Part shown: piece by piece, positions 12,744-35,448 of the stretch
Layout: each line of letters begins with the position of its first letter
How positions within the stretch are numbered: the stretch's first letter is position 1
Source of the DNA: Chryseobacterium sp. JJR-5R
GTDB taxonomy: Bacteria; Bacteroidota; Bacteroidia; Flavobacteriales; Weeksellaceae
Direction of reading: 5' to 3'
DNA: 64,000 nt
NCBI RefSeq assembly: GCF_034047335.1
Contig: NZ_CP139137.1
Location: 3,658,001-3,722,000, forward strand
Notes under the pieces: generated by a model
What the model was told of the DNA's origin: nothing
Databases searched by the model: none
What the model saw: only the letters and a program-made list of their open reading frames with translations
Program-made: the position numbers and the translations under genes

Positions 12744-12809
12744 ATTAATTTGAATTATGGTTATATTTAATTTTCTAAATTTACTAAATAATTCGTATTT
12801 CTTAAGAAA

Positions 12810-28328: not shown

Positions 28329-28369
28329 ATCAAGCAAAAAAATCACACCGTGCAGTATGATTTTTTCTG

Positions 28370-28442
28370 AGCGGAAGACGGGGGTCGAACCCGCGACATT
28401 CAGCTTGGAAGGCTGACGCTCTACCAACTGAGCTACTTCCGC
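28370..28442 (-). tRNA. tRNA-Gly (TCC), copy 2 in transcription order
   Basis: Acceptor GCGGAAG/CTTCCGC, anticodon loop CTTCCAA (anticodon TCC). Identical to the tRNA-Gly at 28798-28870. Confidence 0.96.
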
Positions 28443-28527
28443 AATTTTGTTTCCAAAATTATTGGTAACGCTGTGCAAATTTAAGAAAAATCCTTTAGCC
28501 TTGCAACTTTTTATCTAATATAAAATG

Positions 28528-28608
28528 TGGGGAGAGCAGGATTCGAACCTACGAAGCCGAAGCAACTGAGTTACAGTCAGTCCCATTTAGCCACTCTGGA
28601 ATCTCCCC
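28528..28608 (-). tRNA. tRNA-Tyr (GTA), copy 2
   Basis: 81 nt with a long variable arm as expected for a class II tRNA; acceptor GGGGAGA/TCTCCCC, anticodon loop CTGTAAC (GTA). Identical to the copy at 28956-29036. Confidence 0.96.
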
Positions 28609-28628
28609 AGATATTTTATATTAAAATG

Positions 28629-28702
28629 AGCCTCCAGAGGGATTCGAACCCACGACCCCGAGATTACAAATCACGTGCTCTGGCCAGCTGAGCTATGGAG
28701 GC
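28629..28702 (-). tRNA. tRNA-Thr (TGT), copy 2
   Basis: Acceptor GCCTCCA/TGGAGGC, anticodon loop TTTGTAA (TGT). The anticodon stem CGTGA/TCTCG has a central U-U mismatch that is shared by the other copy. Identical to 29056-29129. Confidence 0.95.
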
Positions 28703-28797
28703 ATTTTAATAATTATAACCGACTGGATGCTGTGAGAAAATCTACTCTACACCATTTCAGTAGTAAAAAAAACACCCTGTTAAAGTGTGATTATCTG

Positions 28798-28870
28798 AGC
28801 GGAAGACGGGGGTCGAACCCGCGACATTCAGCTTGGAAGGCTGACGCTCTACCAACTGAGCTACTTCCGC
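28798..28870 (-). tRNA. tRNA-Gly (TCC), copy 1
   Basis: Acceptor GCGGAAG/CTTCCGC, anticodon TCC. Same sequence as 28370-28442, 428 bp away. Confidence 0.96.
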
Positions 28871-28955
28871 AATTTTGTTTCCAAAATTATTGGTAACGCT
28901 GTGCAAACTTAAGAAAAATCCTTTAGCCATGCAACTTTTTATCTAATATAAAATG

Positions 28956-29036
28956 TGGGGAGAGCAGGATTCGAACCTACGAAGCCGAAGCAACTGAGTT
29001 ACAGTCAGTCCCATTTAGCCACTCTGGAATCTCCCC
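28956..29036 (-). tRNA. tRNA-Tyr (GTA), copy 1
   Basis: 81-nt class II tRNA, anticodon GTA, same sequence as 28528-28608. Confidence 0.96.
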
Positions 29037-29055
29037 AGATATTTTATATTAAATG

Positions 29056-29129
29056 AGCCTCCAGAGGGATTCGAACCCACGACCCCGAGATTACAAATCA
29101 CGTGCTCTGGCCAGCTGAGCTATGGAGGC
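29056..29129 (-). tRNA. tRNA-Thr (TGT), copy 1
   Basis: First tRNA of the operon. Anticodon TGT, same sequence as 28629-28702. Its 5' end is about 45 nt downstream of a consensus promoter. Confidence 0.95.
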
Positions 29130-31078: not shown

Positions 31079-31477
31079 GGGGTTGACTGGTTTCGACAGC
31101 AAGGTCAATGGGTAAGTAAGCATGCAGAGAACCGTAGCGCGATCTCTTAAATCCCTTGCTACAAAATTTTAACTGGCAACGAAGAGTTCGCTCTTGCAGC
31201 TTAATATCGAAGTATAGTAGATCAAGCGTTTTCCCGAAGATTTCAGTAGGGAAGCAAGATGTCCCGCAAATGCCCCGTTCTGCGGCGTTTGATTCCGGGA
31301 TATAGGAATGCAGGAATAAGTCCCGTTTTGCTTCGCAACGGGATCGAAAATCTCAGAAGATAAGCTGGAAGTTGAGCGTCTGCTCTCTGCCTCCAGTCGA
31401 AAACCAACAGCAGGCTAAGCATGTAGAAATCTTATGTATTGCTTGTTTGGACGAGGGTTCGAATCCCTCCAACTCCA
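31079..31477 (+). ncRNA. ssrA: Transfer-messenger RNA (tmRNA)
   Basis: 399-nt one-piece tmRNA for ribosome rescue. The 5' acceptor strand GGGGTTG pairs with CAACTCC at the 3' end; the conserved GACTGGTTTCGACAG follows at the start and the T-arm GAGGGTTCGAATCCCTC is near the end. The tag reading frame starts with GGC at 31175 and reads GNEEFALAA then TAA (31202-31204), fitting the G-initial, ALAA-ending tags of Bacteroidota. CCA is not encoded. A terminator follows. Its 3' end is duplicated twice downstream. Confidence 0.97.
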
Positions 31478-31485
31478 CTGATCAA

Positions 31486-31525
31486 AAAAAAGAGAAAACG
31501 TTTTGTTTTCTCTTTTTTGTTTTTA
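31486..31525 (+). terminator. ssrA terminator (copy A)
   Basis: Stem AAAAAAGAGAAAAC (31486-31499) / GTTTTCTCTTTTTT (31505-31518), then TTTTTGTTTTT-like sequence. The same hairpin recurs at 32380-32411 and 33838-33870. Confidence 0.85.
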
Positions 31526-31552
31526 GAATTCTTTTATCTGTTATATCCAGCT

Positions 31553-31650
31553 TATCTGTTGGCACGGGCATTTTGCTCATGATTCATTAAGACGGATCTG
31601 CTTTATTAGTTTCCTTGATGTTCGCGAGCGGGACGCTCGTGCCAGCAAGG
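31553..31650 (+). repeat. REP-like structured element, copy A
   Basis: GGCACGGGC (31561-31569) can pair with GCTCGTGCC (31635-31643); a competing hairpin CGAGCG-GGA-CGCTCG (31625-31639) shares part of the right arm. Between them lies CTGCTTTATTAGTT, which is also found at the partial copy near 33630. A diverged full copy is at 33905-34015. Confidence 0.65.
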
Positions 31651-31693
31651 GAAATAGAGAATTTGAAAAACCAAAACCTAAAAAATATTATTA

Positions 31694-32193
31694 TGAAATA
31701 TTTTGTTTACGCAATTGATCATACTTATACGGATGAGCTTAGTACTAGTACTAAGCTTTTAGGATTCTGTGATGGTATAGAAGGGCTTGAGAAAATAAAG
31801 CAGGAAGCATTAAAATTGTCGGGATTTAATAGATATCCTAATAGTTTTATCATTAATAAATACATTTTGGATAAAGTATATTGGAAAAATGGATTTGAAA
31901 ATATTATAGGAGAAATTGGAAGAGATTATCTTTTGGAGGGAGATAATTTAATAGATGAAACTTATTTATCTATAAAAAATTTAGGTTTAGAATCAGTTTT
32001 TAGCGTTAGTCATAACTATACTATTGATAGGTATTTAGATGATGAAAGATTTATAGGTGTTTTTTCTTCAGAAGAAAAAGCTGAAAAGGCAATTGAAAAA
32101 TTGAAAAAACAAAATGGATTTATTCTGCATCCTGATGATTTTGATCTAAGTGAGTTAGAAATAAATAATCTGCTATGGAAATCTGGATTTTAA
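31694..32193 (+). CDS. Orphan protein with two tandem DUF7336-like domains
   Basis: 166 residues from the ATG at 31694, chosen because the upstream in-frame extension runs through the repeat element. Residues 1-67 and about 104-166 are two copies of one module, each with an aromatic/His start (FVYAIDHTY; VFSVSHNY), a 'GF/GV...S' turn, a helix, a Phe-rich P-x-F segment and an ending W-K-x-G-F. The pattern fits DUF7336, function unknown. It is A/T-rich in codon use compared with core genes and sits between two copies of the ssrA terminator, as expected for transferred cargo. Confidence 0.6.
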
Positions 32194-32365
32194 TTTGCAT
32201 AACAATTGGGTTCTAATAAAAATTAGAGTAGTATGATACGTTATTTTTAGTCATAAATATGATAAGATCCAAAATCATAATATTATAATAAAAGTTGTTA
32301 TACTGAGAGTTTTAAATAAACCAATCGGTGATAGCATTAGCGGTAGCAAAGTTTAAATTTAAACG

Positions 32366-32420
32366 TATCCACTGATATCAAAAAGAGAAAACGTTGTGTT
32401 TTCTCTTTTTTGTTTTTAGG
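32366..32420 (+). repeat. Second copy of the ssrA 3' end and terminator (copy B)
   Basis: TCCACTGAT (last bases of tmRNA and its flank) followed by a hairpin AAAAAGAGAAAAC (32380-32392) / GTTTTCTCTTTTT (32398-32410), matching the ssrA flank almost base for base with a changed loop (GTTGT). No tRNA-like part remains. The stretch 32194-32365 before it is non-coding. Confidence 0.75.
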
Positions 32421-32478
32421 ATTTTTGTTCATTATTTTTATATGCTTTCACTGCTTACAATTTACTCAAATTAGATTA

Positions 32479-32766
32479 TTACTCTTTAATATCTAAATAG
32501 CCATGAGGTGTAATAATATATAACAATTCTCCTGTTTCTGCATGAATTAAAACGGCCATACTTCTTTCTTCTATTCCCCAAATTTCTCCATAAGAAATGG
32601 CATAGTAATCTATTTTTTGTCCTTCATATTTTCCATGAGAAATAGGGTAATTCATTTCATCTTTTGAAGTAAATGCAATTTCGTTAATAGTATCAATACT
32701 TGAATATTTAATATTTCTATCCAAATAGCTTTTAATTTTATTATAGTCTTCTTCTTTTGCAATCAT
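32479..32766 (-). CDS. Small orphan protein of unknown function
   Basis: 95 residues from the ATG at 32766 (a further ATG upstream at 32790 would add MKFLKLII). It has no signal peptide and a mixed alpha/beta composition: an N-terminal helix with EEDYNKIKSYLDRN and a C-terminal strand pair around MAVLIHAETGELLYIIT. I do not recognise the family. The size, single domain and low-G+C islet setting resemble immunity proteins of toxin systems, but no toxin gene is adjacent, so no function is proposed. Confidence 0.5.
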   Translation of the reverse strand: MIAKEEDYNKIKSYLDRNIKYSSIDTINEIAFTSKDEMNYPISHGKYEGQKIDYYAISYGEIWGIEERSMAVLIHAETGELLYIITPHGYLDIKE

Positions 32767-32953
32767 AATTATTAATTTTAAAAATTTCACTTGTCTTAAT
32801 TTCTTTTCGAACAGTGTGTTTTTATTAATAATAGGAAATAAAGCCTCAACTCACTGAAAAACAATCTGATTTTTTAGCAGCTGTAGTGTACAGATTGTAA
32901 TTAGCCTTGTTATTTAATCGTTTTTACGGATCTCAAAATTTCCTGAATTTGCT

Positions 32954-33400
32954 TTATCTGCTCCGGCGATAGATTTTTTTAGGAATCAAAATCGCAGATA
33001 AATTGTTTTGATAGATGAGAAACCAATTTTTCTTTTCAACGATCTTATAGATTTTCGGCCAGAGAATTTCCATGTAGAAGGATTCGCCTCTGATTTTTAT
33101 CTCGTTTTCGGCCAAATCCATATCCAGCGTTTCCCTTAAATGATTGCTTGAGTAATAATTTCTTAGAATGGTAGTAAATATCACGACCGGCTGAATCACC
33201 GAAATTAAGAGTAAAGTAATATACTGATAAATTACAGGTTTCGGAAGATTCAAAATATGTAAGTGGTAAAGCGTAATCCAAAGCACCATTAACGATGCGA
33301 AACAAATAAGGAATATCATTATGGGCTTTGAATAGGTTAAACTGAATAATATTTTTAAATATTGCCGGATAGTCACTTTTGCTTTTGCCTTTAACTTCAT
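32954..33400 (-). CDS. YcxB-like membrane protein
   Basis: 148 residues with two membrane helices (about 27-48 and 60-84) followed by a cytoplasmic C-terminal domain with the motif SFYMEILWPKIYKIVEKKNWFLIYQNNLSAILIPK, which fits the YcxB-like C-terminal domain (the W/P-x-x-I-x-x-I-x-E and late IPK features). Role unknown; such proteins are often found as orphan cargo in Bacteroidota and Firmicutes. It lies between copies B and C of the ssrA 3' end. Confidence 0.65.
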   Translation of the reverse strand: MKLKAKAKVTIRQYLKILFSLTYSKPIMIFLICFASLMVLWITLYHLHILNLPKPVIYQYITLLLISVIQPVVIFTTILRNYYSSNHLRETLDMDLAENEIKIRGESFYMEILWPKIYKIVEKKNWFLIYQNNLSAILIPKKIYRRSR

Positions 33401-33591
33401 TCTGTCGTTTCCTGAAAAGGGTTAGCTTTAAATATATGAATACTTTTGGTTATATCATTTTTTTAATCAATAATAAATTAATCATTCCTGCTATAAAATA
33501 CTTCAAATATTTGAAGACTTCACCTCTACTTTAATAATTGATAGTTCTATAGTTAACATTAACCGTTACCATACTTTGATAACTTCCTGCT

Positions 33592-33645
33592 GATGCAAGC
33601 GCAACATTCATGACCCATAAGAAGAACCTGCTTTATTAGTTCTGT
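33592..33645 (+). repeat. Partial REP-like remnant directly before the ssrA pseudocopy
   Basis: CATGACCCATAAGAAGAACC then CTGCTTTATTAGTT aligns with the middle of copy A (CATGATTCATTAAGACGGAT then CTGCTTTATTAGTT); the left GCGC-AACATTC part matches copy C. The right arm is missing. Confidence 0.55.
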
Positions 33646-33650
33646 TAATT

Positions 33651-33832
33651 CCCGAGATATAGGAATGCAGGAATAATCTTGTTTTGCTTCATAACGGGAT
33701 CGAAAACTTAGAAGTTAAGCTGGAAGTTCGATGCCTGCGCTCTGCCTCCAGCCGAAAACCAACAGCAGGATAAGCAGGTAGAAATCTTATGCATGGCGTG
33801 TTTGAACGAGGATTCGAATCCCTCCAACCCCA
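33651..33832 (+). pseudogene. Decayed 3' half of ssrA (copy C)
   Basis: About 182 nt aligning with ssrA 31293-31477. Shared blocks include GATATAGGAATGCAGGAATAA, GTTTTGCTTC, ACGGGATCGAAAA, TAAGCTGGAAGTT, CTCTGCCTCCAG, CGAAAACCAACAGCAGG, GTAGAAATCTTATG and TTCGAATCCCTCCAA. The 5' half, tag frame and 5' acceptor strand are absent. Substitutions are scattered, including a T-stem change (GAGGA against CCCTC) that breaks a pair, so it cannot work as tmRNA. The similarity continues through a terminator hairpin (33838-33870) and the REP-like element. Confidence 0.85.
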
Positions 33833-33837
33833 ATCAC

Positions 33838-33876
33838 AAAAAGAGAAAAATGTTACATTTTCTCTTTTTTGTTTTT
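33838..33876 (+). terminator. Terminator copy C
   Basis: AAAAAGAGAAAAA (33838-33850) / TTTTCTCTTTTTT (33858-33870) and a following GTTTTTT; a diverged copy of the ssrA terminator after the pseudocopy. Confidence 0.7.
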
Positions 33877-33895
33877 TAGAATTCTTTCAGCTATT

Positions 33896-34015
33896 ATATT
33901 CAGCTTATCTGCCGGCGCGAACATTCTGCTAGTGACTGATCAATACGGACCTGCTTCATTAGTTTATTTTTTATTTGTCTTGATGTGCACGAGCGGGACG
34001 CTCGCGCCAGCGAGG
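33896..34015 (+). repeat. REP-like structured element, copy C
   Basis: GGCGCGAAC (33914-33922) faces GCTCGCGCC (34000-34008), and the inner hairpin CGAGCG-GGA-CGCTCG (33990-34004) is exactly conserved with copy A. Relative to copy A the fourth base pair has changed from A-T to G-C on both arms. Confidence 0.65.
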
Positions 34016-34090
34016 GCAATTTATAGCTGCAGTAATATAATTGGCAGCGGAACCGGCAGGAGCTCTCTAAACAGTCTATCGTGTAAATAT

Positions 34091-34867
34091 CTAATTTTTT
34101 AAATTAATAAAATTGTTATTTTTTTTATTTTTTCTCCTATAATATTCTTTCATTTTATTTTTGAATTCTTCATTACTTAAACCGTCTTCAGTAGAAGTGA
34201 TTTCTATATTCATCAATTCTTTTTGAGAATTATTTCTATAGTCACTTAATAATTTTCTATACTTTACTTCACTAATAATAATGGACTTTTGTGGAAAAAT
34301 AATTAATTCCTTTTGAAGAGGCTCTATTGCTATTAAATTAAAAATATGTGTACCGGTTATATCAGATGCTTTTATTATTAAGCCTGGAAGCTTATTAAAT
34401 TTATACGGCCCATCTTGAAAAGGTAGATCTGTAGTAAACCAAACTTCCCATTTTCGTCCTTCAAAATGACATTCTGCCTGTTGAGCATTGAAATTAAGAA
34501 TTTTATCCAATCTACTATTTATAGACCATTGAAAATTTGTTCTACCTTCAATTGAATAAATAAATTCAGATAAATTATTATACTCGATTAAAACGTCATC
34601 AGATGTATTTTTTAATATCCTGTAATCAAAATCTGAATAAACATAATTGTCTTTTATAAATAGTGTATCATTAGATTTATGTTTAATATTATAAAACAGG
34701 GATTTATTATTAATAAAATCTAAAAAATAGGTTTCTTTAATTTTATTCTCAATTTTTGTAGAATCTGGTGAGTACGAATATTCATAAGTAAATCTAAATG
34801 CATTTTGTGCATTCAGAAAATTTGCGAAAATCAAGAATATTACTTTGAAAAAATATCGTTGTTTCAT
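34091..34867 (-). CDS. GLPGLI family protein
   Basis: 258 residues with a signal peptide (about 1-20, ending NAQ). The family motif appears as NKLPGLI followed by I-x-x-x-D (near residue 163), in the usual context of a preceding W-x-x-x-x-x-P-F-x-D-GPY. GLPGLI proteins are secreted or periplasmic Bacteroidota proteins of unknown role. The C-terminus is strongly basic and Asn/Lys-rich. It is the second gene after a GG-leader peptide gene, 49 nt downstream on the same strand, which suggests a joint role. Very A/T-rich codon use. Confidence 0.85.
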   Translation of the reverse strand: MKQRYFFKVIFLIFANFLNAQNAFRFTYEYSYSPDSTKIENKIKETYFLDFINNKSLFYNIKHKSNDTLFIKDNYVYSDFDYRILKNTSDDVLIEYNNLSEFIYSIEGRTNFQWSINSRLDKILNFNAQQAECHFEGRKWEVWFTTDLPFQDGPYKFNKLPGLIIKASDITGTHIFNLIAIEPLQKELIIFPQKSIIISEVKYRKLLSDYRNNSQKELMNIEITSTEDGLSNEEFKNKMKEYYRRKNKKNNNFINLKN

Positions 34868-34916
34868 AATAGTAAAATAGCTAGAGTTATACTCTAGCTA
34901 TTATTATTGTTATTAT

Positions 34917-35123
34917 TTATCTTTCACATTTTGGTCCAGTTTGAGTATAACTATAACATCCTCTACCGGTTTTAGGACAAGGTCCATCGCCGACAGACGT
35001 AATTACCATATCTTCACCCCAAAGAGTTCCAGTGTAATTCATATGACACTGTTTTGAAGTTTCATCTCCACCTCCATGGATAACTGATAAATCTTTTCTA
35101 GAAAGTTTTTGTAAATTTTTCAT
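34917..35123 (-). CDS. GG-leader, Cys-containing 'bacteriocin-like' peptide precursor
   Basis: 68 residues. Residues 1-18 (MKNLQKLSRKDLSVIHGG) are a textbook double-glycine leader of the Bacteroidota type, in which a peptidase-containing ABC transporter cleaves after GG. The 50-residue core has four Cys (QCH, PCPK, GCYS, KCER) and many Gly/Thr. No transporter or maturation gene lies near, so export would use a system encoded elsewhere. It is the first gene of a pair with the GLPGLI gene. An antimicrobial role is possible but not shown by sequence. Confidence 0.75.
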   Translation of the reverse strand: MKNLQKLSRKDLSVIHGGGDETSKQCHMNYTGTLWGEDMVITSVGDGPCPKTGRGCYSYTQTGPKCER

Positions 35124-35448
35124 GATATATAATTTAAAATTAAGTGATAAATATAATAAATTAATTCACATGTATAATGATATATTTAACGAATATTTTT
35201 ATGTAACATGTTTTTAATTAAAATGATATAAAAAATTCTTTCTCTTTTTTTCTGCAATAGGCTTATAAACGGCAGCTGATCTCCTTGAAAGACCCGCAGC
35301 AAGCTCTCCAAATAGTCTGCATTATCTCCTGAGCAGATCTGCACCGATAATAATTAACATTAACCAGAGACGATGACCAGCTGGGCAGATCTGCACTAGC
35401 GACAAATACCGTCACTTAATCCCTAGAGGAATCAACAGCGATATAATA
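35124..35448. repeat. Intergenic mosaic of short repeat remnants
   Basis: No gene in 325 bp. The palindrome GCAGATCTGC occurs twice (35333-35342 and 35385-35394), both times in CTG-GCAGATCTGCAC context. GCAAGCTCTCCAAATAGTCT resembles GGAGCTCTCTAAACAGTCT at 34054-34075, and TTAACATTAACC recurs at 33552-33563. These look like debris of the repeat family that surrounds the ssrA copies. Confidence 0.5.

Follow-up and report, generated by a model that had tools for sequence, protein, structure and literature searches.

The window analysed here is a stretch of 64,000 nucleotides of the genome of Chryseobacterium sp. JJR-5R (contig NZ_CP139137.1, positions 3,658,001 to 3,722,000), in which ssrA, the gene of the transfer-messenger RNA (tmRNA), is followed by two small islets of A/T-rich genes, islets A and B. 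Repeats of the 3' end of ssrA close both islets, and we consider it probable that they are the worn ends of small elements inserted serially at the 3' end of ssrA, a preferred integration site in the genus. The best reading of the islets themselves is that of integrase-less remnants flanked by attachment (att) sites, which accreted in the manner of cis-mobilisable elements (CIMEs). An earlier note, made from the letters of the window alone, had described three serial copies of the tmRNA 3' end and left their origin between satellite-like insertions, remnants of larger islands and a local duplication. Relatives are cited below by genome number (G000 being JJR-5R itself), and the features are listed in window coordinates, with the strand in brackets; ORF stands for open reading frame and REP for repetitive extragenic palindrome.

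31079–31478 (+): ssrA, complete, its 3' end being the target site (ARAGORN; Rfam RF00023)
31469–31482 (+): recombination core at the end of ssrA, common to the island ends of seven relatives
31474–32367 (no strand): islet A, 894 bp with one gene, between TCCACTGAT repeats at 31474–31482 and 32368–32376
31479–31655 (+): T-DS block, made of a terminator hairpin (T) and a downstream element (DS) with a REP-like repeat at its end (sequence, alignments, folding)
31693–32193 (+): tandem DUF7336 protein, 166 aa (ORF, Pfam, self-alignment of the halves)
32368–32426 (+): middle junction, TCCACTGATATC and the terminator of islet B, with 9 bp of the usual core missing
32479–32766 (−): ORF B, 95 aa, with two homologues directly after ssrA in G154
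32954–33400 (−): YcxB-domain gene with a shortened C-terminus (PF14317; homologue on the same chromosome)
about 33574–33641 (+): partial extra copy of DS directly left of S (local alignment)
33650–33834 (+): S, the decayed 3' half of ssrA (from about ssrA position 215 to its end), forming the right end of islet B (alignments)
33835–34020 (+): third terminator and second DS block with its REP-like repeat (alignments, folding)

Repeats of the ssrA 3' end and the two islets

The ssrA gene was placed at 31079–31478 by ARAGORN, with the tag peptide GNEEFALAA, and matched RF00023 with an E value of 8e-61; its end carries CCTCCAACTCCACT at about 31466–31479. The long copy (33650–34020) agrees with the ssrA region in 305 of 377 columns (80.9%), divided into 160 of 186 identical columns for the 3' half of ssrA (86.0%) and 143 of 191 for the T-DS part (74.9%), and the middle copy in 54 of 60 columns. 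A search of the JJR-5R genome at E ≤ 0.001 returned ssrA and these two copies only, all of them in the window (81% at E 1.4e-94 for the long copy, 90% at E 4.7e-15 for the middle one), which excludes chance. In ungapped register the terminators lie at 31487–31533, 32380–32426 (94% over 47 nt) and 33839–33885 (70%); their hairpins fold at −17.6, −16.1 and −10.7 kcal/mol (z −4.6, −4.3 and −2.3), and 0, 0 and 3 of 200 shuffles fold equally well. The repeats noticed earlier are therefore real, but they are not of one kind: the middle junction consists of the last six bases of ssrA and a new terminator, and the distal one of a long piece of ssrA, 185 nt, in a decayed state. This long copy is no tmRNA gene, since cmscan run to E = 1 reports RF00023 at ssrA alone.

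The islets have a G+C content of 26–29% against 40.7% for the window, islet A standing at 26% outside T-DS. The tandem structure proposed for its protein holds, given that PF24024 matches the second half (E 8e-11) and that the two halves align with each other (28% identity, E 5e-9). The right end of islet A reads CGTATCC-ACTGATATC, to be compared with CGTATCC-TCCAACTCC-ACT at an inner junction of G105 (CGTATCCTCCAACTCCACT), and from this likeness the middle junction seems to be an att-like site which has lost 9 bp. In G154, where islet A is missing, ssrA runs straight into a terminator of the islet B type, which is 96% identical over 49 nt to that of the middle junction of the window; this genome presumably never had islet A.

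Islet B consists of its terminator, ORF B, the YcxB gene and S. No family was matched by ORF B in a Pfam search, while the YcxB domain was recognized at E 6e-9 (PF14317) in an ORF of 148 aa, compared with 161 aa in the homologue elsewhere on the chromosome, from which it differs at the C-terminus. The YcxB segment (32836–33415) has an 87% copy at G000:C1:703071–703639 and homologues in G105, G048 and G042, the last one lying 293 bp behind ssrA; as these copies share about 480–580 bp and no flanks, YcxB was discarded as a marker of islet origin. In G154, ssrA is followed by the islet-B-type terminator, two homologues of ORF B and, 1.46 kb on, a copy of S, and the G154 unit and islet B are relatives because they have the terminator, the ORF B homologues and S in common.

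Neither islet contains a recombinase according to ORF, Pfam, PF00589 and PF07508 searches, as the earlier note had held when it called them integrase-less. A PADLOC search of seven proteins, including four from the window, found no defence gene at E ≤ 0.01, and the region 31479–35440 had no match among plasmids. In the phage collection, two records without annotation, both from human faeces (MT836513.1 and MT837283.1), match the 3' end of ssrA over about 83 nt (77–80%), as expected of phages which use the ssrA site. Since these two records match the ssrA end alone, carriage of the islets by plasmids or phages was rejected, and so was a phage satellite or prophage remnant, Pfam having found no phage domain in the islet genes.

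The extra partial copy of DS left of S reaches a local score of 46, a value attained by none of 1000 mononucleotide shuffles (best 34), and a similar DS-like flank precedes S on contig C18 of G155. The REP-like stretch (about 31616–31655 and 33983–34016) has many copies across the genomes of the genus and is therefore unfit to be counted as specific to ssrA. Strong matches to DS were obtained in G000, G105, G126 and G161 only, of 173 genomes, and short near-threshold ones in 15 further genomes. In G161 and G105, DS stands immediately behind the right-hand core of an island with a recombinase, in keeping with the idea that DS is an old native sequence behind ssrA.

Two further observations concern the neighbourhood. 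Right of the last DS copy, the A/T-rich segment 34091–35123 carries a GLPGLI-family gene, adjoining a 68-aa peptide whose leader is of the Chryseobacterium bacteriocin-like type (NF047798), and at 28369–29129 there are two tandem sets of tRNA genes (Gly-Tyr-Thr), spaced at about 428 nt.

Integration at ssrA across the genus

The ssrA loci of relatives were fetched from the nearest genomes of the genus and from those with at least two matches in a first search, and do not form a random sample. Among the 77 loci with a full ssrA, fabF lay 711 to 16,849 bp after the gene in 41 (median 4,470), and the 1.4–18.5 kb fetched for the other 36 did not contain it; the next DS lay at 41 kb from ssrA in G105 and at about 37 kb in G161. 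The spread of these distances marks ssrA as a hotspot of integration in the genus, at which some sites are occupied and others almost empty. The core CCTCCAACTCCACT stands at island junctions in G105 (three cores, one of them inside a 41-kb composite, at 12750 of the oriented stretch), G126, G154, G156, G046, G005 and G161, and three kinds of recombinase were found beside such junctions: a tyrosine recombinase of 413–419 aa beside the core junction (G105, G046, G005), a tyrosine recombinase of 431–445 aa beside a 60-nt copy of the ssrA end (G041, G044, G058, G099, G166) and a serine recombinase of 467 aa (G161, L134 17105–18508; PF00239, PF07508), whose gene stops about 80 bp before an ssrA core. 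Relatives carry larger islands at this site, and of the proposals in the earlier note both integration at the tmRNA 3' end and the reading of the islets as remnants are supported.

Copies of 53–60 nt of the ssrA end are found in seven genomes, five of which have the 431–445-aa recombinase; in G125 and G081, a search of the island side for PF00589 gave no match passing E 1e-5. The relatives with this recombinase carry ssrA-like sequence in the right ends of their islands, so that the copied segment, described previously as far longer than an att core, is indeed unusual but not without parallel. The impression that half of the genus has duplicated ssrA ends had to be given up, since the first query included the REP-like stretch: with ssrA alone as query, at least two matches were obtained in 31 of 173 genomes, and several of the extra ones are T-arm-like, 22–35 nt long, and may be tRNA genes. 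Five candidates per genome were scored in this count, and the counts are consequently lower bounds.

Units ending in S and how they may have arisen

Decayed pieces of the 3' part of ssrA with a length of 88 nt or more occur in at least 8 of the 173 genus genomes, JJR-5R included (G000, G046, G105, G116, G126, G154, G155, G156). The copies are thus not common to all relatives at one divergence, as an ancient vertical duplication would have it. Eight S-ended units stand at the ssrA locus (one each in the window, G105, G154 and G116, two each in G126 and G156), and none of the eight contains a PF00589 or PF07508 match at E ≤ 1e-5. Their sizes range from 0.75 kb in G156 to 32 kb in G126, with recurring small units of 0.75–1.5 kb. 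The G156 units lie upstream of the fabF cluster in a genome from which the complete ssrA was not recovered, and in G155 S and ssrA are on different contigs. As a separate observation, the G126 island (contig C9, L034/L035, oriented 5016–34800) contains six gene copies for a 181-aa putative secreted protein, 91–94% identical to the last one over about 750–850 bp and with different genes in between; these copies fill the island from ssrA to S, and two more are on contig C18 of G155.

One unit, a gene pair that we call X, has the same ends in G105, G126 and G156, and G046 carries it together with S. Between G105 and G126, X is 95.3% identical over 1101 bp, compared with 80.7% over 1719 bp for the upstream core block by ssrA; the corresponding figures are 94.2% and 80.0% for G046 and G126, and 94.2% and 90.2% for G105 and G046. 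Such a difference between unit and core block shows that X, which has no integrase of its own, has moved horizontally between species. Scored in windows of 60 columns, the alignment is 92–97% or 100% identical all the way from T-DS to the end of X; the figures for S are 86, 68, 78 and 62%, and past S they drop under 50%. In a tree built from 11 S fragments and 28 ssrA ends (131 columns, with one starred branch), the three fragments of G126 group with the S of the window and of G046 (support 91/91), and this group stands beside the ssrA of the window, G105 and G046 (89/87), apart from the ssrA of G126 itself, whose sequence is shared by G154, G048 and G147. From the identity profile of X and this grouping across species we conclude that S probably travelled with the units and was not copied anew from the ssrA of each host.

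It seems reasonable to propose that an element of this kind would integrate by site-specific recombination at the core in the last T-stem and acceptor bases of ssrA, restoring the end of the gene and supplying a new terminator, and that ssrA would stay intact and insulated for this very reason. Islet B (terminator, ORF B, YcxB, S) might have come first, and islet A (T-DS, DUF7336) would then have entered between islet B and ssrA. The S-ended units may form one class of element, whose right end includes the long ssrA-derived S and was passed from host to host, S decaying because it would have no function as RNA. As long as such recombinase-less units were intact, recombinases specific for ssrA and encoded by islands next to them probably moved them, as cis-mobilisable units that accrete; their recombinase genes would have been lost or never present before decay set in, and the small units may have been served by a recombinase acting in trans. 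The units of the window look inactive and are presumably immobile now.

Several observations weigh against this proposal. No S-ended unit comes with a demonstrated recombinase, excision product or circular form, and JJR-5R encodes two proteins of recombinase families away from ssrA (a PF00589 protein of 315 aa and a PF07508 protein of 549 aa). It is at S or within it, not at the short core, that the identity of X drops, a pattern which homologous recombination between S copies would produce as well, and the support in the S tree is modest, with its 131 columns and one starred branch. The intact GCATGTAG kept by the S fragments of G155 and G116 means that decay was uneven. G154 may have lost islet A instead of never having had it, and the right flank of islet A resembles the serine-recombinase island of G161 over 22 bp, a likeness equalled by 21 of 1000 shuffles and too weak to tie the two together.

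The main rival is homologous recombination, in which circles or incoming DNA carrying S-T-DS (about 340 bp like the ssrA end) insert by a Campbell-type crossover. Such a crossover leaves long flanking repeats by itself and needs no integrase, the repeats are long enough as substrates, and the break in X falls at different points of S in G126 and in G105 and G046. The exact switch of terminator types after CCACT, behind both ssrA and S, is not accounted for in this way, nor is the middle junction of the window, where any long repeat is missing, and an identity of 80–86% makes a poor substrate today. We therefore regard this explanation as unlikely for the arrangement as a whole, although recombination between S copies may act too, since the break in X lies in S.

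It is tempting to go one step further and to see a cassette-like system, in which gene-sized units of 0.75–1.5 kb, each made of terminator, cargo and ssrA 3' fragment, form a head-to-tail chain after ssrA; units would enter at ssrA, be exchanged at S and be spread by helper recombinases from islands at this site. We hold this to be rather improbable. A 20-mer typical of S was found in six stretches of the species collection, three of which are ssrA-like over at least 60 nt and three not; the ssrA-like ones belong to two Chryseobacterium records and a Mucilaginibacter metagenome-assembled genome. In the latter (L141 3575–4340), the core and terminator, a small gene pair and an S-like fragment stand in a row within 0.8 kb, the pair being a RelE-type toxin-antitoxin (toxin PF06296, E 4.7e-11), and the 8 kb examined contain no tmRNA gene. 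A unit of terminator-cargo-S shape hints that the system extends beyond Chryseobacterium; it is a single case found through a motif chosen from S, and as the hits were selected by this very motif, finding it in Mucilaginibacter does not count as independent evidence. Within the genus, CTATAG replaces TGTAG in 6 of the 11 S fragments. The candidate idea of S as a motif-marked family was rejected, the strict pattern being found in 2 of 320 genomes of the family only.

Two observations speak for the local duplication considered in the earlier note, taken as an ancestral tandem copy of the ssrA 3' half and T-DS (about 323 bp) split later by unrelated insertions: what immediately precedes S, in the window and on contig C18 of G155, is DS-like and resembles a tandem joint, and in the tree the S of the window lies near the S of G046 and near the ssrA of the window's clade. 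A purely local event fits poorly with S-related fragments beside a unit that moved between species, with the fragments of G126, which group (with modest support) with the ssrA of other species, and with G046, where one contig has a closed ssrA locus (ssrA, island, SNase, fabF) and a second one the X unit with S and a terminator; on these grounds it is very improbable. That all islets are plain leftovers of a single large island with its middle deleted is the least credible reading, in spite of the broken recombinase remnant (PF00589 positions 1–67, one stop) in the left part of the G105 island after ssrA, because the small unit X recurs with the same ends in three relatives (G105, G126, G156) and, accompanied by S, in a fourth (G046), and recurring units of 0.75–1.5 kb are not expected from independent deletions.

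Related systems and significance

The nearest published case, as far as the sources excerpted here go, is that of Dehalococcoides, where tandem islands downstream of ssrA are bounded by ssrA or a 20-bp repeat of its 3' end, with a serine recombinase at ssrA, and where many islands lack an integration module, which its authors relate to cis-mobilizable elements and accretion (PMC3146451, in part). Chryseobacterium resembles this case in its tandem arrays at ssrA, module-less members and serine recombinase, and differs from what is described there in its repeats (13–14 bp, 60 nt or about 130–185 nt), its units down to 0.75 kb with long ssrA-derived ends, and the occurrence of both tyrosine and serine recombinases at ssrA. 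A CIME is an att-flanked unit devoid of integration and transfer genes, accreted beside a complete element. The islets lack such genes (PF00589 and PF07508 searches; transfer genes judged from ORFs and Pfam only), and the window has its core at ssrA and decayed cores at the other ends, cleaner ones being found in G154, G105 and G156; G105 has a composite of two segments at ssrA, which illustrates the arrangement only. The window copies differ from a CIME in their damaged ends, and mobilisation of the islets would have to be assumed. Likening S to the attC site of an integron gene cassette is an analogy only.

Riemerella anatipestifer belongs to the same family as Chryseobacterium. Integration and excision of its 10K island, which has a tyrosine integrase and a 53-bp site, were demonstrated; that element is complete and its target is a tRNA-Arg gene (PMC6764341, in part). 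In the Islander survey, an island is bounded by ssrA and a displaced 3' fragment that has the orientation of the gene (PMC4383910, in part). The window has the displaced downstream fragment in this orientation, and islets A and B have no integrase inside; since the survey's filters demand an integrase and at least 2 kb, it would reject both. The serine recombinase at ssrA in G161 contrasts with its statement that only tyrosine recombinases were then known to target tDNAs (PMC4383910, in part) and matches Dehalococcoides (PMC3146451, in part).

The locus illustrates how an essential RNA gene can collect small genes behind it that have no recombinase of their own, the end of the target gene and a terminator being carried along so that the RNA gene keeps its function. 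The repeat lengths also warn against reading every long repeat of a target gene as a local duplication. If it is true that the units move in trans, finders such as Islander, which demand an integrase and 2 kb, would miss this layer of gene exchange.

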